DNA of 64,000 nucleotides from Tepidanaerobacter syntrophicus (lineage in GTDB: Bacteria; Bacillota; Thermosediminibacteria; Thermosediminibacterales; Tepidanaerobacteraceae). How positions within the stretch are numbered: the first letter of the stretch is position 1; the number at the start of each line of letters is the position of its first letter. The position numbers and the translations under genes are program-made. This document shows, one piece after another, positions 13,085 to 28,253 of the stretch. The DNA is taken from NCBI RefSeq assembly GCF_001485475.2, contig NZ_DF976995.1, positions 62,001 to 126,000 of the forward strand, in the 5' to 3' direction. Under the pieces are notes generated by a model. The model worked only from the letters and a program-made list of their open reading frames with translations. It did no database searches and was not told the origin of the DNA.

Positions 13085-14449
13085 TTGATTCTCAAAACCA
13101 GTATTAGAGGAAGAGTATACAAATTCAAGGATGTAAAAGAGGTCCTCGCAAAGGCTAATGATGAAAGATCAGGCGATATCTTGGCCGGAGTTGCTGCTGA
13201 ATCTGATGAAGAAAGAGTTGCAGCAAAACAGGTTCTGGCAAATATGTGTCTGGAAGACTTGCGAAACAATCCAGTGGTTCCTTATGAAGAAGATGAAGTT
13301 ACAAGAGTCATACAAGATCAAGTAAATGAGAATGCTTACAGGAAAATTAAGAGCTGGACAGTAGGCCAGCTAAAGGAATTTATTCATGATGATAAAACGA
13401 CTTTCGACGACATAGATTGGGTAAGCAAGGGGCTTACAAGCGAAATGGTTGCAGGTGTAGCAAAACTGAGCTCTACCATGGATCTGGTATCAGGTGCAGC
13501 AAAAATCAGAAGAGTTACACACGCCAATACAACAGTAGGATTACCCGGCACTCTCGCTTCAAGACTTCAGCCAAATCATCCCACAGATGATGTGGAAGCA
13601 ATAATAGCTCAAACTTATGAAGGTCTAAGCTATGGAATAGGAGACGCTGTGCTGGGTATTAACCCCGTAATTGACGATCCAGAAAATGTCTCTCGGCTTT
13701 TAAATACTCTTTACGACATAATAGTAAAATGGAATATACCAACTCAGCATGCGGTTTTGGCCCATGTTACTACTCAAATGGAGTGCATAAGACGGGGAGC
13801 ACCCATAGGCCTTGTTTTTCAGAGCGTTGCAGGAAGCCAGAAAGGCAATGAGGCATTCGGAATTTCCGTAGAAATGTTAGACGAAGCTTATGAATTGGTG
13901 AAGAAATATAGCATTAACCGCGGCCCGAACTTTTTCTACTTTGAAACCGGTCAAGGCTCAGAACTTTCGTCTAATTCACACCATGGAGCAGATCAGGTTA
14001 CAATGGAGGCGCGCTGCTACGGGCTTGCAAAAAGATACAGCCCTCTTATAGTCAACACAGTTGTCGGTTTTATAGGCCCGGAATATCTTTACAACAGTAA
14101 ACAAGTAATAAGAGCCGGCCTAGAAGACCACTTCATGGGCAAGCTTACCGGAATCTCCATGGGAGTCGATGTGTGTTATACGAACCACATGAAAGCTGAT
14201 CAAGATGATATTGAAAATCTAGCTGTGCTTTTAGCTGCTGCAGGTACTAACTATTTTATCGGCGTTCCTATGGGTGATGATATAATGCTTAACTATCAAT
14301 GCGGAAGTTTCCATGATATAGCTACAATAAGGCAGACTTTTGGATTCAGACCAAGCCCTGAATTTGAGCCCTGGCTTGAAAAAATGGGGATTATGAAAGA
14401 CGGCAAATTGACTGAAATAGCCGGCGATCCTACTATTTTCTTGACGTAA
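13085..14449 (+). CDS. eutB: Ethanolamine ammonia-lyase large subunit, copy 1 (canonical)
   Basis: Catalytic subunit of the B12-dependent lyase that turns ethanolamine into acetaldehyde and ammonia. The 454 residues align without gaps to my recollection of E. coli EutB through residue 370. The substrate-binding residues are all present: Arg160 and Gln162 (SRLQPN), Asn193 (GINPV), Glu287 (YFETGQG) and Asp362 (SMGVDVCYTNH). The start is TTG 13085 with AAGGAGGAGG upstream. It pairs with eutC at 14463. This is the copy expected to be the true ethanolamine enzyme. Confidence 0.97.
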   Translation: MILKTSIRGRVYKFKDVKEVLAKANDERSGDILAGVAAESDEERVAAKQVLANMCLEDLRNNPVVPYEEDEVTRVIQDQVNENAYRKIKSWTVGQLKEFIHDDKTTFDDIDWVSKGLTSEMVAGVAKLSSTMDLVSGAAKIRRVTHANTTVGLPGTLASRLQPNHPTDDVEAIIAQTYEGLSYGIGDAVLGINPVIDDPENVSRLLNTLYDIIVKWNIPTQHAVLAHVTTQMECIRRGAPIGLVFQSVAGSQKGNEAFGISVEMLDEAYELVKKYSINRGPNFFYFETGQGSELSSNSHHGADQVTMEARCYGLAKRYSPLIVNTVVGFIGPEYLYNSKQVIRAGLEDHFMGKLTGISMGVDVCYTNHMKADQDDIENLAVLLAAAGTNYFIGVPMGDDIMLNYQCGSFHDIATIRQTFGFRPSPEFEPWLEKMGIMKDGKLTEIAGDPTIFLT

Positions 14450-14462
14450 GGAGGTAGAAAGA

Positions 14463-15368
14463 ATGATATCTGAAAAAGATATTCGTGAATTGGTTGAAAG
14501 TGTAATCAAAGAACTTAGCGCAAGTGAAAAAAAGGAGAGCGCTTCTGCCCCAACAACTTGCAAACCCTGCGTAGAAGCTGAAAAAGCCCAGGAGGACGCC
14601 GGTGAAGAAATGCTCCCTGATTTAGGACTTAGGGATCTTACTACATGGACCGAAATACCCAATCCCAAAGATCCGGAAGGACTTGCAAGACTGAAACGTA
14701 CTTCTCCTGCCCGCATAGGCATCTGGAGAGCTGGCACCAGGTTTAAGGTTGACCCATGGTTAAGGTTTAGAATGGATGTTGCGGCAGCGAAAGATGCTGT
14801 TACTAAAGAAGTAGATCCGGAATTTATAGAAAAACTCGGACTTTTTACAGTACAGACCGTTGTAAAAGACAAAGATGAATATCTTACACGGCCGGATTTG
14901 GGCAGAAAACTGTCTGATGAGGCAAAAGAGAAAATCTTGAAAGAATGCCCCAAAGCCCCTGATGTGCAATTAGTTGTCTGTGACGGCTTAAGCTCTACTG
15001 CTATCGAGGCAAATGCCGCAGATTTTATTCCCGCATTTGAAGCCGCGATCAAGAATTATGGACTAAAGATGGGTAAGCCTTTCTTTGTAAAATACGCAAG
15101 GGTGGCTGTAATGGACGAAATCGGTGAAATTTTACAGCCAGAAGTTATAGTTGAACTTATCGGCGAAAGACCGGGCCTTGTAACAGCTAAAAGCATGAGC
15201 GCCTATATGTGCTATAAGCCGAATAAAAATACCATCGAATCTGATCGCACCCTTGTTTCGAACATTCATGACGGAGGCCTTCCACCAATAGAAGCCGGAG
15301 CCCATGTCGCAAGCATAGCTAAAAAGATATATGATGCAAAAGCCAGCGGCTTAAAATTAAATAAGTAA
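14463..15368 (+). CDS. eutC: Ethanolamine ammonia-lyase small subunit, copy 1
   Basis: 301 residues. Helps bind adenosylcobalamin at the EutB interface. Residues 1-20 (ISEKDIRELVESVIKELSA) form an amphipathic helix followed by an Ala/Lys/Glu linker, the layout of an encapsulation peptide that targets the lyase to the compartment. The core begins around residue 80 with RLKRTSPARIGIWRAGTRFKVDPWLRFR and includes QTVVKDKDEYLTRPDLG, VVCDGLSSTAIEANA and VELIGERPGL. AAGGAGG precedes the ATG. Confidence 0.96.
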   Translation: MISEKDIRELVESVIKELSASEKKESASAPTTCKPCVEAEKAQEDAGEEMLPDLGLRDLTTWTEIPNPKDPEGLARLKRTSPARIGIWRAGTRFKVDPWLRFRMDVAAAKDAVTKEVDPEFIEKLGLFTVQTVVKDKDEYLTRPDLGRKLSDEAKEKILKECPKAPDVQLVVCDGLSSTAIEANAADFIPAFEAAIKNYGLKMGKPFFVKYARVAVMDEIGEILQPEVIVELIGERPGLVTAKSMSAYMCYKPNKNTIESDRTLVSNIHDGGLPPIEAGAHVASIAKKIYDAKASGLKLNK

Positions 15369-15383: not shown

Positions 15384-16040
15384 ATGTATGGATTCAAACC
15401 TATAAAGGCTGATGTACTTGCTATAAAGCTCATTCCTAATGTTAATGATTATTTAAAGAAAGAGCTAAACCTCAAACCAGAGCACAGAAGTATTGGCATG
15501 CTTACTATGAACATTGATGATGTAGGTTATACAGTCATCGATGAAGCTACGAAAAAAGCTGATGTTGAAGTTGTGTATGCAAGATCATTTTATGCAGGCG
15601 CAGCTCATGCTTCAGGCCCGCTATCCGGTGAGTTTATCGGAATTCTTGCCGGCCCAAATCCTGCCGAGGTAAAAAGCGGCATTAATGCAGCAGTGGATTT
15701 TGCCGAAAACGAAGCTTGTTTCTGGGCAGCAGATCCGGAAGGCCAAATTGCCTTTTATGCCCAGTGCATATCTAGAACAGGAAGTTATCTCTCGCAGATA
15801 AATAATATAAAAGAAGGGGAACCTCTGGCATATTTAATCGCTCCTCCTATTGAAGCTGTATATGCATTAGATGCTGCCATAAAAGCAGCAGAAGTGAGAA
15901 TGACGTCATTTTTTGCACCGCCTTCTGAAACCAACTTTTCCGGAGGCCATTTGACAGGTTCTCAGTCGGCGTGTAAAGCCGCATGCGATGCTTTTGCCGC
16001 TGCAGTTATGGAAGTTGCTGCATATCCTAAGAGATATTAA
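15384..16040 (+). CDS. eutL: Microcompartment shell protein EutL (tandem BMC, pore)
   Basis: 218 residues in two fused permuted BMC domains that make a trimer with a gated pore. Typical EutL segments are present: KPEHRSIGMLTMNIDDVGYTVIDEATKKADVEVVYARSFYAGA, and AKGP-type SGPLSGEFIGILAGPNPAEVKSG. Lies between eutC and the EutK-like gene as in other Firmicutes loci. AAAGGAGGT upstream. Confidence 0.96.
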   Translation: MYGFKPIKADVLAIKLIPNVNDYLKKELNLKPEHRSIGMLTMNIDDVGYTVIDEATKKADVEVVYARSFYAGAAHASGPLSGEFIGILAGPNPAEVKSGINAAVDFAENEACFWAADPEGQIAFYAQCISRTGSYLSQINNIKEGEPLAYLIAPPIEAVYALDAAIKAAEVRMTSFFAPPSETNFSGGHLTGSQSACKAACDAFAAAVMEVAAYPKRY

Positions 16041-16053
16041 GTGAGTGATACTT

Positions 16054-16683
16054 ATGAGCAAAGATGCCTTGGGCCTCATTGAAACTCGAGGCTTGGTAGC
16101 TGCGATAGAGGCATTGGATGCAAGCCTCAAAGCGGCAAATGTAGAGTTTGCATCATACCGCTTTACAACCGGTGGCCTTATCTGCGTAATTGTAACAGGA
16201 GAAGTAGGAGCTGTCAGAGCTGCGGTGGACGCAGGGTCAGCTGCCGCTGCCAGAGTCGGCGAGCTTATAGCAACCCACGTTATACCACGCCCGGCCGATG
16301 ATACTATAGCTATTATCGATGAAATAAGAGGTAAAAAACCAGTTTCTAAGAAAAAACCTGATACAGCCGAGCCTGATGAAAATGTAATTAACATAGAAAA
16401 CGAAACGCCAAATGAAATTACACCTTACACAGAAGAGGAATTAAAGAAAGCTGTAGAAATTTTAAGAGAATTTCTAAAAAATACTGAGGGAGAATCACTT
16501 CTTCCCGAGGACAAACGGCTGGACGAGTATGGTGTGAGAACTTTGCGAAAAGTTATGAAAGCTTTACCGCTTGCAGAAACCATAAAATCTCAGATCTATA
16601 CCATGAGAAAACAAGAAATCATAGAAACCCTGATGGAATTTGCAAAGAAGGAGGGGAGGGATGAGTTAGATGATGAATATTGA
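16054..16683 (+). CDS. eutK: Shell protein with C-terminal extension (EutK/EutM-like)
   Basis: 209 residues. The first 90 are a standard BMC domain ([58 protein letters not shown]) close to EutM. A Lys/Glu-rich linker follows, then a helical domain of about 90 residues (YTEEELKKAVEILREFLKN ... TIKSQIYTMRKQEIIETLMEFAKKEG). EutK of enterics also carries an extra C-terminal helical, nucleic-acid-binding-like domain; whether the two are homologous is uncertain. It overlaps eutE by 14 bases. ATG 16054 preferred to GTG 16045. Confidence 0.8.
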   Translation: MSKDALGLIETRGLVAAIEALDASLKAANVEFASYRFTTGGLICVIVTGEVGAVRAAVDAGSAAAARVGELIATHVIPRPADDTIAIIDEIRGKKPVSKKKPDTAEPDENVINIENETPNEITPYTEEELKKAVEILREFLKNTEGESLLPEDKRLDEYGVRTLRKVMKALPLAETIKSQIYTMRKQEIIETLMEFAKKEGRDELDDEY

Positions 16684-18127
16684 TAAAGACTTATTAGCAA
16701 TACAAGAAGTTAGGAACCTTGTAAAAAAAGCTAAAGAAGCCCAGAGAATCTTGGCGACTTTTAGCCAAGAAGAAATCGACAGGATTGTGCAAGCAATGGC
16801 TGAAGAAGGAATAAAGGCATCTCGATGGCTGGCAAAGGTAGCTGTTGAAGAAACTGAAATAGGAAAATATGAGGATAAAATAATAAAAAATCTTTTTTCC
16901 ACAAAAAAGGTCTACGACAGCATAAAAAACCTTAAAACCGTTGGCATTATCTATGAAGAAAAAGAAAAGCGCGTATATCATATAGCGGAGCCGGTTGGAG
17001 TAATAGCGGCGCTTACACCTACTACAAATCCAACATCTACTGCATTTTTCAAATCACTTATATCTATAAAGTCGCGCAATGCCGTGATTTTCAGCCCACA
17101 TCCGAGAGCTGTAGACTGCACATGCCAAGCTGCCGAAATTATGCATAAAGCTGCAGTTCACGCAGGAGCTCCAGAAGGTATAATCGGATGCATTCACTAT
17201 CCGACTTTAGACGCCACAAACCAACTTATGACACATCCTGACATAAGTGTAATACTTGCAACCGGCGGCAGTGGCATGGTAAAGGCGGCATATAGTTCCG
17301 GTAAACCTGCTTTTGGAGTAGGTCCCGGCAATGTGCCGGCATATATTGAAAGAAGCGCCAATGCTAAAAAAGCAGTAAAAGCAATTTTTGACAGCAAAAC
17401 CTTCGACTATGGCACGATTTGCTCTTCAGAGCAATCTCTAATATGTGAAAAGCTAAATGCCAACGAAGTACGGGAGGCTATTAAAGAACAAGGCGGCGTG
17501 TTTTTAAATGAAGAAGAAATTCATAAACTGGAACGCTTTGCTTTCCGCTGCGATGGCAGTCTGAGCCCTGCTATTGTAGGAAAATCAGCTGCAGCTATTG
17601 CTCAAAGTGCCGGATTTAAAGTAGATCCTAACACAAGAGTGCTGCTTGCAGAACTTAGCGGTGTGGGAATGGAATATCCGCTTTCTCGTGAGAAACTAAG
17701 CCCCGTTCTTGCCTACTATGAAGTTGAGAATTGGCAGGAAGCTTGTGAACTTTCAAAGAGATTGTTGGCACTTGGAGGCATGGGACACACCCTTTCTATC
17801 CACTCAGAGGATAAAGAGGTAATTACTCGCTTTGCCCTTGAAAAACCCGCATCAAGAATTGTAGTAAATACACCTTCGTGTTTAGGCGCTATAGGCGGAA
17901 CAACCGGGCTTACCCCGTCGCTGACACTGGGCTGTGGCTCATTTGGAGGCAACTCGACTTCAGATAACATAGGCCCAATGAATCTTCTAAATATAAAAAG
18001 GCTCGCATATGAAATAAAGAGTCCTGAAGAGCTTACAACAGAACTTCTTGCTGCAGAAGCAGATGGTGATTCCGAAGAAGAGCTTGTTAAAAAGATTGTA
18101 AAAGAAGTACTGAAAAAGATTTCTTGA
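16670..18127 (+). CDS. eutE: CoA-acylating acetaldehyde dehydrogenase EutE
   Basis: Converts acetaldehyde and CoA to acetyl-CoA with NAD+ inside the compartment. Aldehyde dehydrogenase fold of 485 residues: AEPVGVIAALTPTTNPTSTAFFKSL, the glycine motif TGGSGMVKAAYSSGKPAFGVGPGN, and the catalytic Cys in FDYGTICSSEQSL. The first 18 residues (NIDKDLLAIQEVRNLVKKAKEAQ) look like an encapsulation helix. Overlaps the upstream shell gene. No alcohol dehydrogenase (eutG) is found in this locus to dispose of NADH. Confidence 0.96.
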   Translation: MMNIDKDLLAIQEVRNLVKKAKEAQRILATFSQEEIDRIVQAMAEEGIKASRWLAKVAVEETEIGKYEDKIIKNLFSTKKVYDSIKNLKTVGIIYEEKEKRVYHIAEPVGVIAALTPTTNPTSTAFFKSLISIKSRNAVIFSPHPRAVDCTCQAAEIMHKAAVHAGAPEGIIGCIHYPTLDATNQLMTHPDISVILATGGSGMVKAAYSSGKPAFGVGPGNVPAYIERSANAKKAVKAIFDSKTFDYGTICSSEQSLICEKLNANEVREAIKEQGGVFLNEEEIHKLERFAFRCDGSLSPAIVGKSAAAIAQSAGFKVDPNTRVLLAELSGVGMEYPLSREKLSPVLAYYEVENWQEACELSKRLLALGGMGHTLSIHSEDKEVITRFALEKPASRIVVNTPSCLGAIGGTTGLTPSLTLGCGSFGGNSTSDNIGPMNLLNIKRLAYEIKSPEELTTELLAAEADGDSEEELVKKIVKEVLKKIS

Positions 18128-18152
18128 CAAATTTTGAGGAGGTTAGATAAAA

Positions 18153-18446
18153 ATGGCAGATGGTCAAATTGCATTAGGAATGATAGAAACAAGAGGATTA
18201 GTAGCATCAATTGAAGCAGCAGATGCTATGGTAAAGGCTGCAAATGTTTATCTTATTGGTAAGGAGCATGTAGGTGGAGGACTTGTTACAGTTATGGTAA
18301 GAGGCGATGTAGGAGCCGTTAAGGCGGCTACCGATGCCGGTGCTGCAGCGGCCGCAAGAGTAGGAGAACTTATTTCTGTTCACGTAATACCAAGACCCCA
18401 TGGAGATGTAGAATATATTCTACCCCACATAGACAGGAACGAATAA
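18153..18446 (+). CDS. eutM: Major hexameric shell protein EutM
   Basis: 97-residue single BMC domain: [81 protein letters not shown]. This is the canonical facet hexamer. GAGGAGG precedes the ATG by 9 bases. It ends the first stretch of tightly packed genes; a gap of about 200 bases with a hairpin follows. Confidence 0.97.
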
Positions 18447-18527
18447 AGAAGCAGAGCATCTATGAATTAAAAAAGTAGAATGTATTTTATACATCAAGAA
18501 AAAGTTGTAAGAACATACTTTACAAGA

Positions 18528-18590
18528 GGCCGTCAGGTAATGCCAAAAGGTTTCTTGCCTGATGCAGTCTGTTTATATTATCTGGCGGTC
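18528..18590 (+). other. Hairpin in the eutM-eutT gap
   Basis: GGCCGTCAG (18528-18536) pairs with CTGGCGGTC (18582-18590), 9 bp with two wobbles, around an inner AGG/CCT hairpin. There is no T tract, so it is not a plain terminator. It may be an RNA-processing or stability element placed after the abundant EutM message. Confidence 0.45.
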
Positions 18591-18652
18591 GCTTACTAAT
18601 TAAGGAAGTAATACCTCTTACAATATTTCAAGCCGTGGGGAGGGTGAACTAT

Positions 18653-19432
18653 GTGAAAGTCTTAACAGAAATTGATCTACGTTCGAACCTTAAAAATTTA
18701 GATTCTATTAAAACGTACAAAGTACCGTCAGGCACTATTCTTACACCCGCCGCCCGCAGTTTTCTTACAGAAAACAAGATAGACATAGTCTTTGCCGATG
18801 ACGAAAAAGAAGAGATAAAAGAAAATCCCAAAGAGTCCAAATCTAATATTGAAGCAGAAAAAAGAGAAGAAGGTTCAAAAAAACCTCGGTATTTTCTTAT
18901 AGGAGCCGGAATAAGAACAGATGAAAAACCTGAGGCCTACACTCATTTATATGCTAATAATCTTGTTCCAAAATGCCATCCCAGAATAAAATTTCGAGGG
19001 AAAATAGATTCGCTGGAAGCCTGCATAATCTGTACCCAAGTCAAAGCTAAAACATTAAAAATGGATAATGTAGCAGAGGATTTAAACGATATCTTGACAC
19101 TTGCAAGAAACATACTAAGAGCCGAGGTGCTTTCGGAGCCTCTTGAGGATTTCCTCTTATTAGGTCTGTCGGAACAGGATATTAGAGAAATTTCCCATAA
19201 TCCCCAAAAAACCCTTGGCATATCCCACTTTATTCCCTCCTATGAAATGGGAGAAATGATGGCAGAATTAAATTATGTAAGGACCCAAATAAGAGAAACT
19301 GAGATTGCAGGAGTAGAAGCTTTTCTTGATGTGGCAGAAGGCTTAAAAAGAGAGGACATCATAAAGGCTTTAAATCGCATGAGCAGTGCCGTTTATGTAA
19401 TGATGTGCCGCCTAAAGGCCGGAAAATATTAA
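18653..19432 (+). CDS. eutT: EutT-type corrinoid adenosyltransferase
   Basis: Makes adenosylcobalamin, the EutBC cofactor, from ATP and cob(I)alamin. 259 residues from GTG 18653 (GGGAGGGTGA upstream). The N-terminal 35 residues hold a TILTPAARSFLTENKIDIVF module shared with other Eut proteins here. The core has the EutT/PduO-like IGAGIRTDEKPEAYTHLYAN, a CHPRIKFRGKIDSLEACIIC stretch with a Cys-x-x-Cys pair that may bind metal, and C-terminal adenosyltransferase helices (LNYVRTQIRETEI). AAAGG-type coupling to pduL. Confidence 0.88.
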   Translation: MKVLTEIDLRSNLKNLDSIKTYKVPSGTILTPAARSFLTENKIDIVFADDEKEEIKENPKESKSNIEAEKREEGSKKPRYFLIGAGIRTDEKPEAYTHLYANNLVPKCHPRIKFRGKIDSLEACIICTQVKAKTLKMDNVAEDLNDILTLARNILRAEVLSEPLEDFLLLGLSEQDIREISHNPQKTLGISHFIPSYEMGEMMAELNYVRTQIRETEIAGVEAFLDVAEGLKREDIIKALNRMSSAVYVMMCRLKAGKY

Positions 19433-19458
19433 AGAATATTAAAGTTAGGAGTCCAGCC

Positions 19459-20094
19459 ATGGAAAAGGATGAAATAGTAAAATTAGTTGCTCAAGAAATT
19501 ATTGCAAGAGAAATGAGAGTTCCTATTCCGGTAACCGTTTCCAACAGGCATGTCCATGTCGATGAAAGTGCCAGGAAGATTCTTTTTGGCGATGCTCCTT
19601 TAAGAGTCAAAAAATTTTTAGGCCAGCCGGGAGAATTTGCCGCTGAAGAAACGGTTATGGTGATAGGGCCAAAAGGCCATTTTGATTCTGTAAGAATAGT
19701 AGGACCCGAGCGCAAAGCGTGTCAGATGGAGATATCTGTAGGAGATTGCTATCATCTTGGCGTAAGGCCTGTTGTCAGGGATTCTGGAGATATTGACGGA
19801 ACACCGGGTGTATACCTTGTAGGACCCTGTGGGATGGTGCAAATGCAGCAGGGCGTAATAGTTGCAAAAAGACATATTCATATGGTGCCTCAAGATGCCG
19901 AAAAATACGGTGTTAAAAATAAGCAATTGGTTCGGATAAGATATGATACAGGGATGCGCAAAGGCATACTTGGAGATGTATTGGTAAGAGTAAATGAAAA
20001 CTATGCCCTTGAATGCCATCTTGATATCGAAGAAGCCAATGCATTGTGCATAAAAAACAATGACACGGTATATATGGAGATTGGGGAAATATAA
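19459..20094 (+). CDS. pduL: PduL-type phosphotransacylase
   Basis: Turns acetyl-CoA into acetyl-phosphate and recycles CoA in the lumen. It fills the role of EutD. 212 residues with two related half-domains, each with zinc-ligand histidines: VSNRHVHVDES near residue 30 and VAKRHIHMVPQDAEKYG near residue 140. The N-terminal helix EKDEIVKLVAQEIIARE resembles an encapsulation peptide. ATG 19459 follows GTTAGGAGT; the longer frame overlapping eutT has no site. Confidence 0.95.
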   Translation: MEKDEIVKLVAQEIIAREMRVPIPVTVSNRHVHVDESARKILFGDAPLRVKKFLGQPGEFAAEETVMVIGPKGHFDSVRIVGPERKACQMEISVGDCYHLGVRPVVRDSGDIDGTPGVYLVGPCGMVQMQQGVIVAKRHIHMVPQDAEKYGVKNKQLVRIRYDTGMRKGILGDVLVRVNENYALECHLDIEEANALCIKNNDTVYMEIGEI

Positions 20095-20096
20095 TC

Positions 20097-20954
20097 ATGT
20101 TTACAATGGAGAAAGTCAATAAAGCTATTGCACGCCTCGAAAAATGTATGATAAATCCTGAAAATGCAATCGGTGACTTATATACCGGCATTGATTTGGG
20201 AACAGCGTATACTGTACTTACTGTAATAGACTCTGAAGGAAACCCTGTGGCCGTAACCTATCGCTTTGCACAAGTGGTACGCGACGGTGTGGTAGTAGAC
20301 TTTACTGGTGCCACGCGTATACTGAGAGAGCTGAAGGCGGAGCTAGAGGAAAAATTAAATAGGGAACTTGAAAAAGCTGCCGGTGCGTTTCCGCCTGATA
20401 CGGGCAACAGCACTGTAAAAGCGCATTTTTATGTGTGCGAAGGCGCTGGATTTGAAGTCATAAACATGGTGGATGAACCAACTGCCGCAAACAATGTGCT
20501 CAACATTGAAAACGGTGCTGTTGTAGATATCGGCGGAGGAACTACAGGAATTGCAATTATCCAGGACGGCAAGGTGGTCTACACTGCTGATGAGCCAACT
20601 GGCGGCACACATTTTTCGCTGGTTATAGCAGGTGCAAGGCATATTAGCTTTGAAGAGGCGGAAGATTTTAAGAAGCGACCTGAGAATCAAAAAGAAGTCA
20701 TGCTCATGGTAAAGCCTGTAGTTCAAAAAGTTGCAAGCATAATTAAAAGTAAAATTCGTGGGTATGATGTGAAAAGCATTTACTTGGTTGGTGGAACATG
20801 TTGCCTTGAAGGCATAGAAAAGGTTATAGAAAACGAACTGCACATTCCCACATTTAAACCGACAGATCCCCTGCTGGTAACGCCTTTGGGTATTGCATTG
20901 AGCTGTTTGGAGGTGAATGGGATTGAATCAAGAGATGTTGAAGCCTATCATTGA
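20097..20954 (+). CDS. eutJ: EutJ, actin/Hsp70-like chaperone protein
   Basis: 285-residue ATPase of the DnaK/ParM superfamily. It has TGIDLGTAYTVLTVIDSEG (phosphate 1), the adenosine motif AVVDIGGGTTGIAIIQDGKVVYTADEPTGGTHF and IYLVGGTCCLEGIEKVI. Its exact role is unknown; it is proposed to act as a chaperone. It overlaps the next gene by 38 bases. Confidence 0.93.
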   Translation: MFTMEKVNKAIARLEKCMINPENAIGDLYTGIDLGTAYTVLTVIDSEGNPVAVTYRFAQVVRDGVVVDFTGATRILRELKAELEEKLNRELEKAAGAFPPDTGNSTVKAHFYVCEGAGFEVINMVDEPTAANNVLNIENGAVVDIGGGTTGIAIIQDGKVVYTADEPTGGTHFSLVIAGARHISFEEAEDFKKRPENQKEVMLMVKPVVQKVASIIKSKIRGYDVKSIYLVGGTCCLEGIEKVIENELHIPTFKPTDPLLVTPLGIALSCLEVNGIESRDVEAYH

Positions 20955-21771
20955 AGCTGTTGTCCGAGAAGTAATGAAAAAAATGGAAGGCGCAGCAGGC
21001 ACAGCAGAAATTAAGAAAGAAGAAAGTCAAAAAGAAAAAATATTGTTGGTTTTTACCGGCGGAACCGGAAACCTGGATATGGTTTTAGAACAGCTAAAGC
21101 TGCTTTCTGAGAAATTTGACTTTATTGCACTTTTTAGCAAATCTGCGGAAAAAGCCGTAGGTAAACAAAGAATACGAGAAGCTATAGAATTTGAGGATGC
21201 AATAGAAGAAAATCTTTATGATGCTCTTTCTGCTGTAGATAAGATAATATTTCCAACCCTTACCCAAAATACAGCTGCAAAAGCTGCTGTAGGAATAAGA
21301 GATTCTGTTGCAAGTGAAGCACTGGCCTGCGGCCTTTTGCTAAAGAAAAAAGTTATTGCCATAACAGACTCGATTCCGTTAAAATCAATGCCGGCAGCAT
21401 ATGCTCGTATGGTTGGCGAAGTGCTAAAAAGGGTGGAGCAACTAGGTGTTGACATGTGTAAAGCTGAAGAGCTGGCAAATAAAGTCCTTTACATTAAAAA
21501 AGACACAGGAATAAAGACTGTGCCTGCCGGCACGGAATGCAAAATTGAAACTGCTCCAGAACCGTTAAAACCTAAGCCGCCGGAAAATGCCCAGGAAAAG
21601 CAAAATGTTTTAACACTGGAAAGCAAGGCCCCGGTTACTGCGGAAGTAGTTAATAATGCCATACTCAAAGGCTTTAACAAGATAATCTTGCCACCGCGCA
21701 CTATACTGACGCCCCTTGCAAAAGATGCGGCCAAGGATAATAAAGTAGATGTTGAATGGGCGGTGGAATAG
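20917..21771 (+). CDS. Microcompartment-associated flavoprotein-like protein
   Basis: 284 residues. The first 20 (NQEMLKPIIEAVVREVMKKME) are a strong amphipathic encapsulation-type helix. The middle resembles the Flavoprotein/decarboxylase-like fold: KILLVFTGGTGNLDMVLEQL, FPTLTQNTAAKAAVGIRDSVASEALACGLLLKKKVIAI. The last 40 residues hold a TILTPLAKDAAKDNKVDVEW module, like that at the EutT N-terminus. Such proteins occur in several compartment loci with no settled role; reduction of flavin or cobalamin would fit next to the PduS-like gene. Confidence 0.72.
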   Translation: MGLNQEMLKPIIEAVVREVMKKMEGAAGTAEIKKEESQKEKILLVFTGGTGNLDMVLEQLKLLSEKFDFIALFSKSAEKAVGKQRIREAIEFEDAIEENLYDALSAVDKIIFPTLTQNTAAKAAVGIRDSVASEALACGLLLKKKVIAITDSIPLKSMPAAYARMVGEVLKRVEQLGVDMCKAEELANKVLYIKKDTGIKTVPAGTECKIETAPEPLKPKPPENAQEKQNVLTLESKAPVTAEVVNNAILKGFNKIILPPRTILTPLAKDAAKDNKVDVEWAVE

Positions 21772-22044
21772 GTGCATATATGCAAAGTCAAAGGCAATGT
21801 CTGGGCAACCCGCAAGGAAGAGAGCCTGAAGGGTCAGAAATTTTTAATAGTTGTAAATGTGGATGAGCGTCAAAGAGAAATTGGGACACCTTATGTGGCG
21901 ATTGATAATATAGGGGCCGGCGTAGGTGAACTGGTAATAGTCGCTTCCGGCAGTTCTGCCAGAAAAGTATCCGACGAATCAATGCCGGTAGATGCAGCAA
22001 TTGTAGGAATTATTGATTCGATGGAAATAGATTCAGGCAGCTAG
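21772..22044 (+). CDS. eutN: Shell vertex protein EutN (BMC pentamer)
   Basis: 90-residue CcmL/EutN fold: CKVKGNVWATRKEESLKGQKFLIVV, DNIGAGVGELVIVASGSSARKV and DAAIVGIIDSMEI. Forms pentamers capping compartment vertices. Start is GTG 21772, which immediately follows the upstream stop codon. Confidence 0.96.
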   Translation: MHICKVKGNVWATRKEESLKGQKFLIVVNVDERQREIGTPYVAIDNIGAGVGELVIVASGSSARKVSDESMPVDAAIVGIIDSMEIDSGS

Positions 22045-22056
22045 GAGATGGTGTAA

Positions 22057-23388
22057 TTGCAAGTAAATGAAAAATTAAAAGAAATGGGTGTAGTAGGTGC
22101 CGGTGGTGCAGGATTTCCAACATACGCAAAGCTCAAGCAAGGCGGTATAGACTACTACATAGCAAACGGAGCTGAATGTGAGCCGCTGCTTGATGTAAGC
22201 AAAGAAATAATGGCAAGGTTTCCCGGCAAAGTCATAAAAGGACTAAATCATCTTGCAAAATACACCGGAGCGGCGAAAACGGTTATAGCTTTAAAAGGAA
22301 AGTATAAGCAAGCTATAAAAGCGTTACGAGAAGAGCTTACAACTGAAGCCGAAAACAATATTGAAATTTTTGAAATGGGAGATTTTTTCCCGGCAGGCGA
22401 CGAACAAGTGCTTGTTTATGAAATAACAGGCCGAGTTGTGCCGGAAGGCGGTATACCGCTTTTGGTAGGAGCGGTAGTAAACAATATTGAAACTTTATAC
22501 AACGTGTACAATGCCATTGAAGAAGATACGCCGGTGATTGATAAGTATATTACCATCGGAGGAGATGTAAAAGATCCTATAACATTAAAAGTTCCGGTAG
22601 GAACTAATATAGGATGGTTGTTGGATTTTCTCGGAATAGAATACAAAGATAAAGTTATAATCGACGGTGGACCCATGATGGGAAATATTACAAACCCTGA
22701 TATGCCTATCGTAAAAACAACAGGAGGCCTCCTGCTTTTCCCCAACGACCATCCTGCTGTGACTGTAAAAACATCCAGCATGGATTATATATTAAAAATG
22801 GCCAAGATTTCCTGTATACAGTGCCGCTATTGCACCGAGCAGTGCCCTCGCTATCTTTTAGGACACGACTTACAACCATCGAAAATTATGTTGACCGTTG
22901 GATTTAGACTTACAAGCGATTATATTAAGCAAGCACTTTTGTGCTGCGAATGTGGTCTTTGCGAAGCATACTCATGCCCCCAGCAGCTTTCACCACGTCG
23001 AGTCAACCAAGCCTTAAAAAAGGAACTTGCAGCTGCCGGAGTAAAGTATACCTCCCACAAAACCACCTTCAAACCTCGGGAAGCCAGAGAATGGCGAAAG
23101 GTGCCTACAAGCCGCCTAAAAGCACGATTAAATCTTACAGAGTTTGAGCGGCATGCTTCTTTAGTAGATGGAAATTTTGTAAAGCCGCCCAAAGTTTTTA
23201 TTCCGACTAAACAGCATACGGGCGTTCCTGCAACTCCAATAGTAAATGTAGGCGATAGAGTAGCAAGGGGTCAAGTGATAGGTACTGTGCCTGAAGATAA
23301 ACTAGGCTGTTACATTCATGCCAGTATAGACGGAATCGTCGAGCAAAGCGATAAGGATAAAATTGTTATCCGGGGGGAGGAATCATAA
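22057..23388 (+). CDS. pduS: PduS-like (RnfC-like) flavin/iron-sulfur cobalamin reductase
   Basis: Electron-transfer protein of 443 residues. The glycine-rich loop VVGAGGAGFPTYAKL near residue 10 and the NGAECEPLL motif fit the NADH/FMN region of RnfC/NuoF relatives. Two 4Fe-4S sites follow: CIQCRYCTEQCP near 250 and CCECGLCEAYSCP near 290. In Pdu systems this protein reduces cobalamin for the adenosyltransferase. The tail after residue 340 is a SLBB/barrel-sandwich-like domain. The start is TTG 22057 and the gene overlaps pduT by one base. Confidence 0.9.
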   Translation: MQVNEKLKEMGVVGAGGAGFPTYAKLKQGGIDYYIANGAECEPLLDVSKEIMARFPGKVIKGLNHLAKYTGAAKTVIALKGKYKQAIKALREELTTEAENNIEIFEMGDFFPAGDEQVLVYEITGRVVPEGGIPLLVGAVVNNIETLYNVYNAIEEDTPVIDKYITIGGDVKDPITLKVPVGTNIGWLLDFLGIEYKDKVIIDGGPMMGNITNPDMPIVKTTGGLLLFPNDHPAVTVKTSSMDYILKMAKISCIQCRYCTEQCPRYLLGHDLQPSKIMLTVGFRLTSDYIKQALLCCECGLCEAYSCPQQLSPRRVNQALKKELAAAGVKYTSHKTTFKPREAREWRKVPTSRLKARLNLTEFERHASLVDGNFVKPPKVFIPTKQHTGVPATPIVNVGDRVARGQVIGTVPEDKLGCYIHASIDGIVEQSDKDKIVIRGEES

Positions 23389-23948
23389 TGGAAAAAGCCA
23401 TAGGTATCATCGAAACAATAAGCATTGCAGGAGGAATTAAAGCAGCTGATGCTATGGTTAAAATGGCTCCGGTTAAGCTGTTTTTAGCACGGCCAATATG
23501 CCCCGGGAAATTTTTAGTTCTTATTGGCGGTGATGTGGCAGCCGTGAAGAGTTCTTTAGATGCAGGCAAGAGCACAGTAGAACATTATTTAGCAGATTCG
23601 ATATTGATTTCAAGTGTTCACGATGATGTTTTTCCTGCTCTTGAAGCTGCTGTTGCAATAGAGGAAAGTGATGAATCACTAAGGGCTTTAGGAGTTATAG
23701 AGACTTTTTCCGTAGCGTCATGTGTTATTGCGGCGGATGCGGCGGCAAAAAGCGGTGGTGTAAAGCTAATTGAAATACGTCCGGCTATGGGCCTTGGAGG
23801 TAAGGCTTTTGTGACTATGATAGGAGATGTGAGCGCCGTAGAATCGGCAGTTAGCGCAGGTCGGCAACAGGCAGAACCGGAAGGAATGTTAGTAAACAGC
23901 ATTATTATACCTTCTGTGGCGAAGGATGTTTTGAAAGCACTGCTTTAA
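23388..23948 (+). CDS. pduT: PduT-like tandem BMC shell protein with Fe-S site
   Basis: 186 residues, two BMC domains (KAIGIIETISIAGGIKAADAMVK and RALGVIETFSVASCVIAADAAAK) forming a pseudohexameric trimer. The CPGK motif in RPICPGKFLVLIGG is the Cys that binds a 4Fe-4S cluster at the trimer pore in PduT. This fits an electron conduit working with the PduS-like reductase encoded one base upstream. Confidence 0.93.
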   Translation: MEKAIGIIETISIAGGIKAADAMVKMAPVKLFLARPICPGKFLVLIGGDVAAVKSSLDAGKSTVEHYLADSILISSVHDDVFPALEAAVAIEESDESLRALGVIETFSVASCVIAADAAAKSGGVKLIEIRPAMGLGGKAFVTMIGDVSAVESAVSAGRQQAEPEGMLVNSIIIPSVAKDVLKALL

Positions 23949-23952
23949 GGGG

Positions 23953-24243
23953 GTGAGTGTTATAAACAAAAAACTTATTACAAAGCAGGATGTGGACAAA
24001 TGGTATTTTGAAGGCATAAAAGAAATCTATGTAGATGACAATACTATGATTTTACCCGGAGCAAAGGATGCACTCATGGCTGCAGGAATAACAGTAAAAA
24101 CTAAAAAAGATTGTTCTGAGTTAGAACAAATTAGAAAAGTAGTAGATGAATACTGTAAAGAAAAAAACATAGACGGTGAGGAGAAAGAAAAGATTATAAA
24201 GAGCGTTATAGCCAAGTGCAGCATAAATCTTGGGGGTGAATAA
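23953..24243 (+). CDS. EutQ N-terminal-domain-like protein
   Basis: 96 residues. The opening NKKLITKQDVDKWYFEGIKEIYV and MILPGAKDALMAAGITV recall the N-terminal domain of EutQ (KKLIT..D... ITPEA). The EutQ cupin half is encoded alone at 8264-8707. The C-terminal 40 residues are a charged helix (LEQIRKVVDEYCKEKNI). GTG 23953 follows AAGGGGG almost without a spacer, so the exact start is unsure. Placed between pduT and the second eutB. Function unknown. Confidence 0.62.
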   Translation: MSVINKKLITKQDVDKWYFEGIKEIYVDDNTMILPGAKDALMAAGITVKTKKDCSELEQIRKVVDEYCKEKNIDGEEKEKIIKSVIAKCSINLGGE

Positions 24244-24246
24244 ATT

Positions 24247-25632
24247 ATGCCTTGGTCAACTAGATTGTTTGGAAAAAATTACACATTCTTTAGCATAAAA
24301 GAAATTCTTGCTAAAGCAAGCGAGGAAAAATCAGGAGATATTTTTGCCGGAATTGCTGCTGAAAATAATGCCGAGCGCGTGGCGGCAAAAAGAGTTCTTG
24401 CAGAACTTACCTTAAAAGATCTTAGAGAAAATCCAGTTATTCCTTATGAGGAAGATGAGGTTACGAGAGTAATTGACGACGGTCTTTCTCAGGGAATTTA
24501 TAAGAGCATATGCTCAATGACAGTTGCTGAACTTCGTGAATGGATTTTAAGCCATGACACAACATGTGAAGATATTCACCGTGTGTCTGCCGGTTTAACT
24601 GCAGAAATGGTTTCAGCAGTTGCAAAACTGATGTCAAACATGGATTTGGTGTATGCAGCGTCAAAAATCCATGTGGTTACTAAAAACAGAACAGAAATCG
24701 GTCTTCCTGGGACACTTTCATATCGTATTCAGCCCAATCACCCTAACGACAGTGTTGAAGGAATACTGGCATCTGTAATGGAAGGCCTTACTTATGGTTC
24801 CGGTGATGCAGTTATCGGCATCAACCCCAATGAAGATACAGTAGAAAATACTGTAAAGTTAATGAACGCATCTTTTGACTTTATGATGGACTGGGCTATA
24901 CCTACACAAAACTGTGTTCTATCCCACATAACCACTCAGATGAAAGCGGTAGAAGCAGGTGCCAGGGTATGCGCCTTCTTCCAGAGCATATCAGGCAGCG
25001 AAACCTGCAATAAGGTTTTTGGTATAAGCGCTAAAATGTTGGATGAAGCATTTGACATGATTAAGAAAAAGGGTTTTGCACCAGGACCGAATTTTATGTA
25101 TTTTGAGACAGGTCAAGGTTCAGAACTTTCCCTCGATGCCCACCACGGAGCCGATATGCAGACCCTTGAAGCTAGAACATATGGGTTTGGTAGAAGATAT
25201 ATGCCATTTATGGTGAACAACGTATCAGGCTTTATCGGACCTGAAACATTATATGATGGAAAACAAATAACAAGAGCGAGCTTGGAAGATCACTTTATGG
25301 GCAAACTTTTAGGTCTACCAATGGGAATGGCACCATGCTATACAAACCATGTAAAAGTTGATCAAAACGACCAAGAAGGCGCAATTATGCTGCTAGCTAT
25401 GGCAGGAGCCAACTATTATATGGGAGTTCCGGGAAGCGATGATTGCATGCTTAGCTACCAAGATACCAGCTATCATGATGATGCAACCCTTCGAGAACTG
25501 CTGGGACGCCGTCCTGCTCCGGAATTTGAAAAGTGGCTTGAAAAAATGGGAATTATGAAAGACGGCAGGCTGACGCCAATAGCTGGCGATCCATCAATTT
25601 TTGCTACTATGACTCCGTTAGGAAGAAGGTGA
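24247..25632 (+). CDS. eutB: Ethanolamine ammonia-lyase large subunit paralogue, copy 2 (Asp362 lost)
   Basis: 461 residues, gap-free against copy 1 through residue 370. It keeps Arg160 and Gln162 (YRIQPN), Asn193 (GINPN) and Glu287 (YFETGQG). The amine-binding Asp362 is replaced by Ala (PMGMAPCYTNH; codon GCA at 25330-25332). Nearby changes set it apart too: Thr325 to Asn, Val327 to Ser (VNNVSGF), and an Asn to Ser in DDCMLSYQ. It carries its own eutC. The frame is clean and strongly conserved, so it is an active gene. Its substrate may differ from ethanolamine. Confidence 0.92.
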   Translation: MPWSTRLFGKNYTFFSIKEILAKASEEKSGDIFAGIAAENNAERVAAKRVLAELTLKDLRENPVIPYEEDEVTRVIDDGLSQGIYKSICSMTVAELREWILSHDTTCEDIHRVSAGLTAEMVSAVAKLMSNMDLVYAASKIHVVTKNRTEIGLPGTLSYRIQPNHPNDSVEGILASVMEGLTYGSGDAVIGINPNEDTVENTVKLMNASFDFMMDWAIPTQNCVLSHITTQMKAVEAGARVCAFFQSISGSETCNKVFGISAKMLDEAFDMIKKKGFAPGPNFMYFETGQGSELSLDAHHGADMQTLEARTYGFGRRYMPFMVNNVSGFIGPETLYDGKQITRASLEDHFMGKLLGLPMGMAPCYTNHVKVDQNDQEGAIMLLAMAGANYYMGVPGSDDCMLSYQDTSYHDDATLRELLGRRPAPEFEKWLEKMGIMKDGRLTPIAGDPSIFATMTPLGRR

Positions 25633-25636
25633 AGAA

Positions 25637-26527
25637 ATGACACTTTTTAAAGACGATGAAATTAATACTATAGTACAAAAAGTGTTAGAAGAATTGAAGG
25701 ATAAGGCAGATCCTGACAAGGCCTGCAAAACAGGGGAAAACGTCCAACCCAATGGCGAAAAAGTCATAGAATTTTCAGATATAACTGAATACAGTTTACT
25801 CGAGAAAGTTTTTGTAAAAAATCCTATGGACGAAGAATTTCTTTTAAGGATTAAAAAAACAACACCTGCTCGAATCTGTATAGGTAGAACCGGTCCGCGC
25901 TACCTTACGATACCATGGCTTCGATTTAGAGCTGATCACGCCTCAGCTATGGACGCAGTTTTTAGCGATGTATCAGAAGAATTTTTAAACAAGATGGGAT
26001 TATTCAGTGTGCAGACGGTAGTTAAAGATAAAGATGAATATCTTACACGCCCGGATCTTGGGAAAATTCTTTCCGAAGAAGCTAAAGAAGAGATAAAAAA
26101 ACGGTGCAAAATGCAGCCGCAGATTCAGGTTATTGTAGTCGACGGTTTAAGCTCTAAAGCTATCGAAGCTAATGTGCCTGATTTTCTGCCCGCACTTTTA
26201 GAGGGACTTAAAACCAATGGTCTTGATGTAGGAACCCCGTTTTTCATAAAATATGGCAGAGTGCCGGTAATGGATGACGTAAATGAAGTAATAAAGGCTG
26301 ATGTTGTAGTTGAGCTTATAGGCGAAAGACCCGGACTTGGGACAGCTACAAGTATGAGCGCATATCTTTGCTGGAGACCTAAACGAGGCACTGTTGAATC
26401 TGATAGAAACGTGGTCTCCAATATTCATGCAGGCGGAATGCCGCCAGTAGAAGCAGGGGCACATGTAGCCTCTCTTGCTAAGAAAATTTTTGACAAACAA
26501 GGCAGCGGCGTAAATGTAGGTATTTAA
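25637..26527 (+). CDS. eutC: Ethanolamine ammonia-lyase small subunit paralogue, copy 2
   Basis: 296 residues, clearly homologous to copy 1 from RIKKTTPARICIGRTGPRYLTIPWLRFR onward (QTVVKDKDEYLTRPDLG, VVDGLSSKAIEANV, VELIGERPGLGTATSMSAYL are shared). It too has an N-terminal amphipathic helix (KDDEINTIVQKVLEELKDKA) and a charged linker, so it should be targeted to the same compartment. Only four bases separate it from eutB copy 2, so the pair moves and is expressed together. Confidence 0.94.
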   Translation: MTLFKDDEINTIVQKVLEELKDKADPDKACKTGENVQPNGEKVIEFSDITEYSLLEKVFVKNPMDEEFLLRIKKTTPARICIGRTGPRYLTIPWLRFRADHASAMDAVFSDVSEEFLNKMGLFSVQTVVKDKDEYLTRPDLGKILSEEAKEEIKKRCKMQPQIQVIVVDGLSSKAIEANVPDFLPALLEGLKTNGLDVGTPFFIKYGRVPVMDDVNEVIKADVVVELIGERPGLGTATSMSAYLCWRPKRGTVESDRNVVSNIHAGGMPPVEAGAHVASLAKKIFDKQGSGVNVGI

Positions 26528-26568: not shown

Positions 26569-27648
26569 TTGAGCATTAATCAAATTATCGTTGATATTAT
26601 GGTTGTATTTATGGTTTTAGGCGCTATTGATAGGATTTTAGGCAATAAATACGGATTAGGCGAGCAGTTTGAAGCAGGATTTAATGCCATGGGTTCTTTA
26701 GCACTTGCAATGCTCGGAGTTGTATCCCTGGCACCGGTTTTGGCTAAAGTATTAGAACCTGTAGTGGTACCTATTTATTCAGCCCTAGGTGCAGACCCTG
26801 CTATGTTTGCAACAACCCTTCTTGCATGCGATATGGGCGGATTTCCTTTAGCTATGGCAATGGCTAAAACTAAAGAAGCAGGTCTTTTTGCCGGCATAAT
26901 TTTAGGTTCTATGATGGGACCGACAATTGTGTTCTCCATTCCTGTGGCATTGGGAATAATCCAAAAAGAAGATCATAAAGCATTAGCTACCGGTATCTTA
27001 GCAGGTATGATAACCATACCTATCGGATGCTTCTTCGGTGGTTTAGTAGCCGGCTATGAGCTGGGGATGATAGTCAGCAATCTTGTTCCTATAATTATTG
27101 TGGCAGCACTAATTGCAATCGGACTTTGGAGAATACCTGATAAGATGATAAACGGATTTAATGTATTTGGAAAAATAGTTGTAATAGTTATAACGATTGG
27201 TCTTGCTGCAATTATAGTCGAAACCTTGACAGGAATTGTTGTAATTCCCGGAATGGCACCTATCAGTGATGGCATACAAATAATCGGAAGTATTGCAATT
27301 GTCTTGGCAGGGGCATTTCCAATGGTGACAGTTATTACAAAAGTATTTAAGAAACCGTTGATGTCTATGGGCAAGGCCCTAGGCATGAACGACATAGCAG
27401 CTGCCGGTTTGGTTGCCACGCTTGCAAACAATATTCCGATGTTTCAAATGATGCACGACATGGATTATCGCGGAAAAGTTCTTAATGTGGCATTTGCAGT
27501 CAGCGCTGCGTTTACCTTTGGCGATCACTTAGGATTTACAGCAGGCGTTGCAAAGGAAATGATATTCCCGATGATAGTCGGAAAACTTATCGCAGGCGTC
27601 ACAGCTATAATGGTGGCAAGCTTTTTTGCCCCGAAAAGCGCAAGCTAG
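26569..27648 (+). CDS. eutH: Ethanolamine permease EutH
   Basis: 359-residue membrane protein with about ten hydrophobic segments and the EutH features LACDMGGFPLAMAMAKT and GFTAGVAKEMIFPMIVGKL. Imports ethanolamine, mainly needed at low pH or low substrate. Start is TTG 26569 after GAGGGGTG. It closes the main operon and is followed by a strong terminator. Confidence 0.96.
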   Translation: MSINQIIVDIMVVFMVLGAIDRILGNKYGLGEQFEAGFNAMGSLALAMLGVVSLAPVLAKVLEPVVVPIYSALGADPAMFATTLLACDMGGFPLAMAMAKTKEAGLFAGIILGSMMGPTIVFSIPVALGIIQKEDHKALATGILAGMITIPIGCFFGGLVAGYELGMIVSNLVPIIIVAALIAIGLWRIPDKMINGFNVFGKIVVIVITIGLAAIIVETLTGIVVIPGMAPISDGIQIIGSIAIVLAGAFPMVTVITKVFKKPLMSMGKALGMNDIAAAGLVATLANNIPMFQMMHDMDYRGKVLNVAFAVSAAFTFGDHLGFTAGVAKEMIFPMIVGKLIAGVTAIMVASFFAPKSAS

Positions 27649-27821: not shown

Positions 27822-28253
27822 TTGCAGAAAAAAATCATGTTTATTGGCGCTTCCGGATCAGGTAAATCTACTCTCATAAAAACACTGAGGGGATGTGGAG
27901 AAGCAGTAAAAACCCAGGCAGTGACTTTTGAAGACGGATATATAGATATTCCAGGTGAATATATGGACATAAGACGGCTAAATTATGCAGTTATAACAAC
28001 GGCTATGGATGCTGATGCTATATTTGTGGTTCAAGACTCTACTTCATCAAAACCCACCACACCGCCGGGCTTTGCAGGAATGTTTAATATTCCCGTCTAT
28101 GGAGTCGTAAGCAAAATAGACCTGCCAACAGCTGATATAAAAAGAGCGAGTAAGTATCTTGAAATGTGCGGCGTAAAAGGAAAATACTATCCCGTCTCAG
28201 CGGTAACAGGAGAGGGAATAGAAGAATTAAGAGAATTAATTGAAAATTTGTGA
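27822..28253 (+). CDS. eutP: EutP, P-loop GTPase-like protein (proposed acetate kinase)
   Basis: 143 residues with Walker A GASGSGKSTLI at residues 8-18 and a TKLD-like SKIDLP motif near residue 104. EutP/PduV proteins have been tied to acetate kinase activity or compartment positioning. It lies after the operon terminator and has TATAAT at 27766-27771, so it is probably transcribed separately. The start is TTG 27822 after GAGGTGA. Confidence 0.9.
   Translation: MQKKIMFIGASGSGKSTLIKTLRGCGEAVKTQAVTFEDGYIDIPGEYMDIRRLNYAVITTAMDADAIFVVQDSTSSKPTTPPGFAGMFNIPVYGVVSKIDLPTADIKRASKYLEMCGVKGKYYPVSAVTGEGIEELRELIENL

Follow-up and report, generated by a model that had tools for sequence, protein, structure and literature searches.

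The second ethanolamine ammonia-lyase-like large subunit encoded in the 64,000-nucleotide stretch of Tepidanaerobacter syntrophicus DNA analysed here (the window) belongs to a distinct EutB type within the ethanolamine ammonia-lyase family and is probably a B12-dependent lyase acting on N-methylated ethanolamines. This protein, EutB2, has alanine in place of the aspartate at residue 362, and in every relative that shares this alanine an aspartate is found at residue 406. Genomes with eutB get read as those of ethanolamine users. If the assignment is true, a step leading from choline to acetaldehyde and methylamines has gone unrecognised in many anaerobes (Desulfosporosinus, Sporomusa, Alkaliphilus, Desulfobacterota, termite-gut bacteria and Synergistota) under the annotation 'ethanolamine ammonia-lyase', which would bear on trimethylamine formation, methane precursors and the loss of choline in guts and sediments. 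It would also provide an example of a radical enzyme that changes its substrate via one acid shifted across the pocket. Ala362, Asp406, Asn325, Ser327 and Thr334 together serve as a fingerprint for re-annotating the family.

Two lyase pairs around one microcompartment block

The window holds two lyase pairs, with all features described here on the + strand. EutB1 (13085..14449; NF011649, 679 bits) is a large subunit of the ordinary Asp362 type and is partnered by the small subunit EutC1 (14463..15368; NF003971, 296 bits). A microcompartment block common to both lyases follows (15384..23948), with ORFs for EutL, BMC-H, aldehyde dehydrogenase, EutT, PduL-like, EutJ, TIGR02536-like, PduS-like and BMC-T proteins; EutT is named by its match to NF011595 (152 bits), the TIGR02536 match is weak, and the rest are named by reading of the sequence and by the matching gene order of relatives. 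EutB2 (24247..25632) is 461 residues long and scores 642.6 bits on NCBIfam NF011649 (cut-off 554) and 668 bits on Pfam EutB PF06751 (cut-off 25). It is adjoined by its small subunit, EutC2 (25637..26527; NF003971, 302.4 bits, cut-off 230), and by an EutH-type permease (26569..27648; NF011666, 602 bits, cut-off 482), with an EutP/PduV-family small GTPase-like protein beyond (27822..28253; TIGR02528, 122 bits, just under the cut-off of 138). The two large subunits are 58.6% identical and the two small subunits 55.1%. Within positions 6000-36000, no Rfam match revealed a regulatory RNA that would tell the two EutB copies apart. A small uncalled ORF just upstream of EutB2 (23953-24240), with the motif LITKQDVDKWYFEGIKEIYVDDNTMILPGAKDALMAAGI, resembles short proteins at the same place in relatives.

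The first-pass annotation of this DNA had read alanine at residue 362 of EutB2, changes at residues 325 and 327, and retention of Arg160, Gln162, Asn193 and Glu287, all of which we confirm. Translation of positions 25321-25344 gives MGMAPCYT, in which the codon at 25330-25332 specifies Ala362; EutB1 has Asp at this number (codon from 14168), as does the E. coli EutB reference (L027), in CDCCYTNH. Asp362 of the E. coli enzyme is the residue that we take to contact the substrate amino group in the crystal structure. Here, the alanine forms part of an Ala362-Pro363 pair (25330..25335) that replaces Asp362-Cys363 of E. coli EutB. Just after barrel strand 6, Thr325 and Val327 are changed to Asn and Ser (25219..25227). 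Further correlated changes, absent from the earlier annotation, are Ala159 to Tyr beside Arg160 in barrel strand 1 (24721..24723), Tyr334 to Thr, and Thr406, the E. coli residue, to Asp (25462..25464), the last being the candidate for a relocated pocket acid.

The AlphaFold2 model of EutB2 (pLDDT 91) finds its best PDB match in 3abo_A, the E. coli ethanolamine ammonia-lyase with ethanolamine (TMq 0.95, rmsd 1.6). In this model, the clade-specific residues are predicted where barrel strands end on their C-terminal side, or just beyond: strand 1 for 159, strand 6 for 325 and 327, strand 7 for 362 and 363, and strand 8 for 406. The C-terminal strand ends are the active-site side of such a barrel. 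Asp406 is placed at this end in the loop after strand 8, which is poorly predicted (pLDDT <50 at 397-404).

The Ala362 clade and its spread

Relatives of EutB2 were sought in 101 genomes related to that of the window, where identity is 81-87% within the same family and order and then drops to 65% or less. A scan of named genomes gave 80 loci, 73 of which encode the Ala362 type, and these loci together with regions from whole genomes supplied 139 EutB copies, a few fetched twice by different routes so that not all are from different organisms: 85 with Ala362, 52 with Asp362 and 2 with Gly362. Every Ala362 copy (85 of 85) combines Asn325 with Ser or Thr at 327, Thr334, an aromatic residue at 159 (Phe in 63, Tyr in 22) and Asp406, and Pro363 is found in 84 of them; Arg160, Gln162, Asn193 and Glu287 are invariant throughout. 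In comparison, Asp362 is present in 53/53 other proteins, E. coli included, and these Asp362 proteins have Thr or Ser at 325, Val at 327, mostly Ala, Ser or Val at 159, and Cys, Thr or Ser at 406. Because the same residue set recurs in 85 of the 139 copies, and these 85 form one clade, chance or sequencing error can be ruled out. Fixation of the set across the 85 proteins likewise led us to reject decay of a duplicate gene.

A tree of the Ala362 proteins had been proposed by the first-pass annotation. The maximum-likelihood tree, computed from 78 thinned rows without the 15 most diagnostic columns, sets the Ala362 and Gly362 copies apart from all Asp362 copies as one clade with 99% SH-aLRT support. 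The clade ranges over Bacillota, Synergistota, Spirochaetota, Desulfobacterota, Chloroflexota, an actinomycete, and termite-gut bacteria filed as Myxococcota. Within an even sample of the window organism's phylum (n=398 genomes), the motif counts are 14 for Ala362 and 29 for Asp362, and the plasmid collection holds only ordinary EutB, at <60% identity.

Asp406 is present in all 85 Ala362 and both Gly362 proteins, in none of the 52 Asp362 copies, and not in E. coli EutB. This covariation suggests a relocation of the pocket acid from 362 to 406 and would favour a cationic amine substrate over a diol. The earlier annotation had pointed to the loss of the amine-binding aspartate and suggested that the enzyme acts on another small alcohol or amino alcohol. 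With an acid gained in every Ala362 and Gly362 protein, loss of amine binding is probably not what happened, and the amine half of the proposal gains support at the expense of the diol or plain alcohol. The same annotation had named another acid in the same pocket as a finding that would speak against it; judged from the covariation, Asp406 appears to be such an acid. The broader idea of an altered substrate is upheld by the separate conserved clade, the intact catalytic residues, the rebuilt pocket and the different gene neighbours.

Two further arrangements were seen within this set. A third EutB type, with Gly362 and Asp406, is nested in the Ala362 clade (L120:11970-13352 and L143:1-1152, genome G109); it has Thr325, Thr327 and Val334, and possibly acts on yet another substrate. 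In about ten loci (including L036, L037, L038, L039, L052, L065, L069, L077 and L085), an Asp362 and an Ala362 EutB stand in direct tandem with one shared EutC, an arrangement that suggests a single shell serving two substrates.

Genes beside the Ala362 lyases of relatives

Clustering of 1,253 ORFs around 73 Ala362 loci returned, along with the usual Eut and shell genes, a set of recurrent non-Eut families: an MttB-superfamily methyltransferase (PF06253), a phosphotransferase (APH), an EamA permease, HAD phosphatases, corrinoid proteins, a methyltetrahydrofolate:corrinoid methyltransferase and a PocR-type regulator. The sole PDB match of the EamA permease is the DMT permease LicB (E=7.6e-18), a choline transporter (PMC6620236), and the best PDB match of the kinase is choline kinase (E=1.3e-5). 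Some of the MttB genes contain an in-frame TAG followed by a homologous continuation, as pyrrolysine predicts, and the MttB of L088, when read through its TAG, reaches 758 bits against the trimethylamine methyltransferase model, whose cut-off is 525. In Desulfosporosinus, the gene order is EutB, EutC, EutA, regulator, corrinoid protein, kinase, MttB, corrinoid protein, methyltransferase II and HAD, while L144 has, nearly all on the same strand, pyrrolysine-type MttB, kinase, LicB-like permease, MttB, HAD phosphatase, EutB, EutC, EutA, EutL and shell genes. TAG-interrupted, pyrrolysine-type MttB genes were observed by bacterial eut-type microcompartment loci at L079, L088, L089, L098, L144, L146 and L147.

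To compare these neighbourhoods, a locus was counted as Asp362-only when it held an Asp362 EutB without any Ala362 copy. MttB lies within 10 kb of 24 of the 74 Ala362 loci and of none of the 30 Asp362-only loci (p=1.6e-4), many of the neighbour-rich Ala362 loci being close relatives (Desulfosporosinus); after thinning at 86% identity, the counts are 7/36 and 0/24 (p=0.035). A choline-kinase-like gene is likewise found within 10 kb of 18/74 Ala362 and 0/30 Asp362-only loci, and EutH is no different between the two (23/74 versus 7/30). Counted per genome, MttB is present in 12 of 14 Ala362 genomes and 6 of 21 Asp362-only genomes. The two recurrent HAD-type phosphatases are near 14 and 6 of the 85 Ala362 copies, compared with 2 and 0 of the 52 Asp362 copies, and both of these Asp362 copies come from one locus that also holds an Ala362 copy. 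At about two-thirds of the Ala362 loci, among them that of the window, no methylamine gene lies closer than 10 kb. The closest exception to the association is found in genome G094: its locus L119 is Asp362-only, but has EamA permeases in the vicinity and, at a distance of about 11 kb, an MttB of the pyrrolysine type.

The window organism itself lacks these partners. Its genome (G000) has no MttB and no homologue of the neighbouring choline-kinase-like protein. The EamA family is represented by a weak match only, and nothing reaches the TIGR04394 cut-off for CutC, the closest glycyl radical enzyme being distant (484 bits against a cut-off of 1050). With neither MttB nor a kinase homologue, demethylation cannot feed EutB2 here, and with CutC lacking too, EutB2 would act alone beside EutH. 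The adjoining EutH, a presumed ethanolamine permease, counts against an N-methylated substrate. The substrate that we propose for EutB2 in this organism, and its use, are thus inferred from its relatives.

The proposed reaction and its competitors

On this evidence, it is reasonably likely that EutB2-EutC2 is an adenosylcobalamin-dependent C-N lyase whose natural substrate is an N-methylated ethanolamine, either dimethylethanolamine or choline, with N-methylethanolamine less likely. In the mechanism we envisage, Glu287, Arg160 and Asn193 would hold the hydroxyl end of the substrate as in the parent enzyme, and the 5′-deoxyadenosyl radical would take a hydrogen from C1. The amine would then leave as dimethylamine or trimethylamine, yielding acetaldehyde that would pass to the shell-enclosed aldehyde dehydrogenase in the Eut microcompartment. 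Asp362 would crowd the N-methyl groups and Ala362 would make room for them, the positive charge being met instead by Asp406 and the aromatic residue 159.

Which methylated amine is used may be indicated by the neighbouring genes, and the two pointers they give differ. In Eubacterium limosum, choline is phosphorylated by MthK, and demethylation of the phosphocholine by MthB yields dimethylaminoethanol phosphate (PMC12155760). Where proteins of these kinds and a phosphatase lie beside an Ala362 EutB, they suggest dimethylethanolamine as the substrate, with dimethylamine and acetaldehyde as products. A pyrrolysine-type MttB as neighbour suggests in turn that choline is the substrate and that trimethylamine is probably released. 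Extended to the whole clade, this second pointer would make the Ala362 type a B12-dependent choline trimethylamine-lyase and give anaerobes a second way, independent of CutC, to turn choline into trimethylamine and acetaldehyde, a version that we put forward only tentatively. Growth on N,N-dimethylethanolamine and on trimethylamine is described for Sporomusa sphaeroides (PMC6315149), and other Sporomusa species fall within the Ala362 clade (L043, L070 and L078). DCMF converts choline to acetate and monomethylamine, for which its authors give a betaine route (PMC8163858); this physiology is neutral and does not decide the matter, because the betaine route explains DCMF equally well. In the open-access literature searched, we found no earlier suggestion of a B12-dependent lyase for choline or dimethylethanolamine.

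EutB2 could instead still be an ethanolamine ammonia-lyase in which Asp406 replaces Asp362, as an isoenzyme for another temperature, affinity or cobamide type. The acid count of the presumed pocket is unchanged, EutB2 lies in the same eut operon beside EutH, and several organisms have both EutB types in tandem with one shared EutC. We nonetheless rate this reading as unlikely: it explains neither the fixed changes at 159, 325, 327 and 334 nor why it is chiefly Ala362 loci that have MttB, choline-kinase-like and LicB-like genes, and a near-duplicate is not expected to be kept as a single clade over at least five phyla. Ordinary ethanolamine ammonia-lyase turns over 2-aminopropanol slowly, and without Asp362 there would be room for a larger substrate, both of which speak for a lyase of another small amino alcohol such as 2-amino-1-propanol, 1-amino-2-propanol or serinol. 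However, in the 1,253 clustered ORFs of the neighbourhoods we recognised no recurrent family as belonging to a pathway of this kind, and the recurrent non-Eut neighbours indicate choline and methylamines, making this substrate range improbable.

The remaining two readings are less probable again. A dehydratase of ethylene glycol, 1,2-propanediol or a plain alcohol derived from EutB would account for the disappearance of Asp362, thought to bind ammonium, and EutB2 shares its barrel fold with diol dehydratase (TMq 0.60). Yet the gain of Asp406 throughout the clade would fit poorly with a neutral substrate, EutB2 is only 16% identical to diol dehydratase, and no diol-specific genes recur nearby, so that we regard this origin as very improbable. 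A catalytically dead paralogue with a regulatory or structural role is hardly to be expected: EutB2 is a duplicate copy with one substrate-binding residue altered, but the protein is highly conserved, its catalytic residues Arg160, Gln162, Asn193 and Glu287 never vary among the 85 members, and in many loci the Ala362 EutB is the sole EutB seen, accompanied by a full microcompartment set.

Set against known systems, a lyase for N-methylated ethanolamines of the EutB2 type would be closest to EutBC (E. coli 3abo, Listeria 2qez), with which it shares its fold (TMq 0.95), length, Arg160, Gln162, Asn193 and Glu287, an EutC partner and the Eut microcompartment setting. Unlike the EutB2 clade, EutBC is without the fixed Ala362-Pro363, Asp406, Asn325, Ser327, Thr334 and aromatic residue 159, and the EutB2 type forms a separate clade with choline and methylamine neighbours in many relatives. 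PduCDE, the diol/glycerol dehydratase, is also an adenosylcobalamin barrel of related fold, but at the low identity given above it is not the closest family. The choline trimethylamine-lyase CutC resembles the proposed reaction in cleaving the C-N bond of a (methylated) 2-aminoethanol to give acetaldehyde in a microcompartment; in contrast to the cobalamin-type barrel of EutB2, it is a glycyl radical enzyme, unrelated in cofactor and protein family. MthKBCA of E. limosum matches the Desulfosporosinus and other Ala362 loci in its kinase, MttB-superfamily methyltransferase, corrinoid protein and methyltransferase II, a likeness of protein kind taken from the published description (PMC12155760). 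There, dimethylaminoethanol is the end product, whereas the Ala362 loci add a lyase and a HAD phosphatase. At one such locus, L146, a 666-residue ORF (L146:13394-15394) that by eye is alkaline phosphatase/phosphodiesterase-like lies between the Ala362 EutB cluster and the MttB genes, and might serve to release choline from phosphodiesters.
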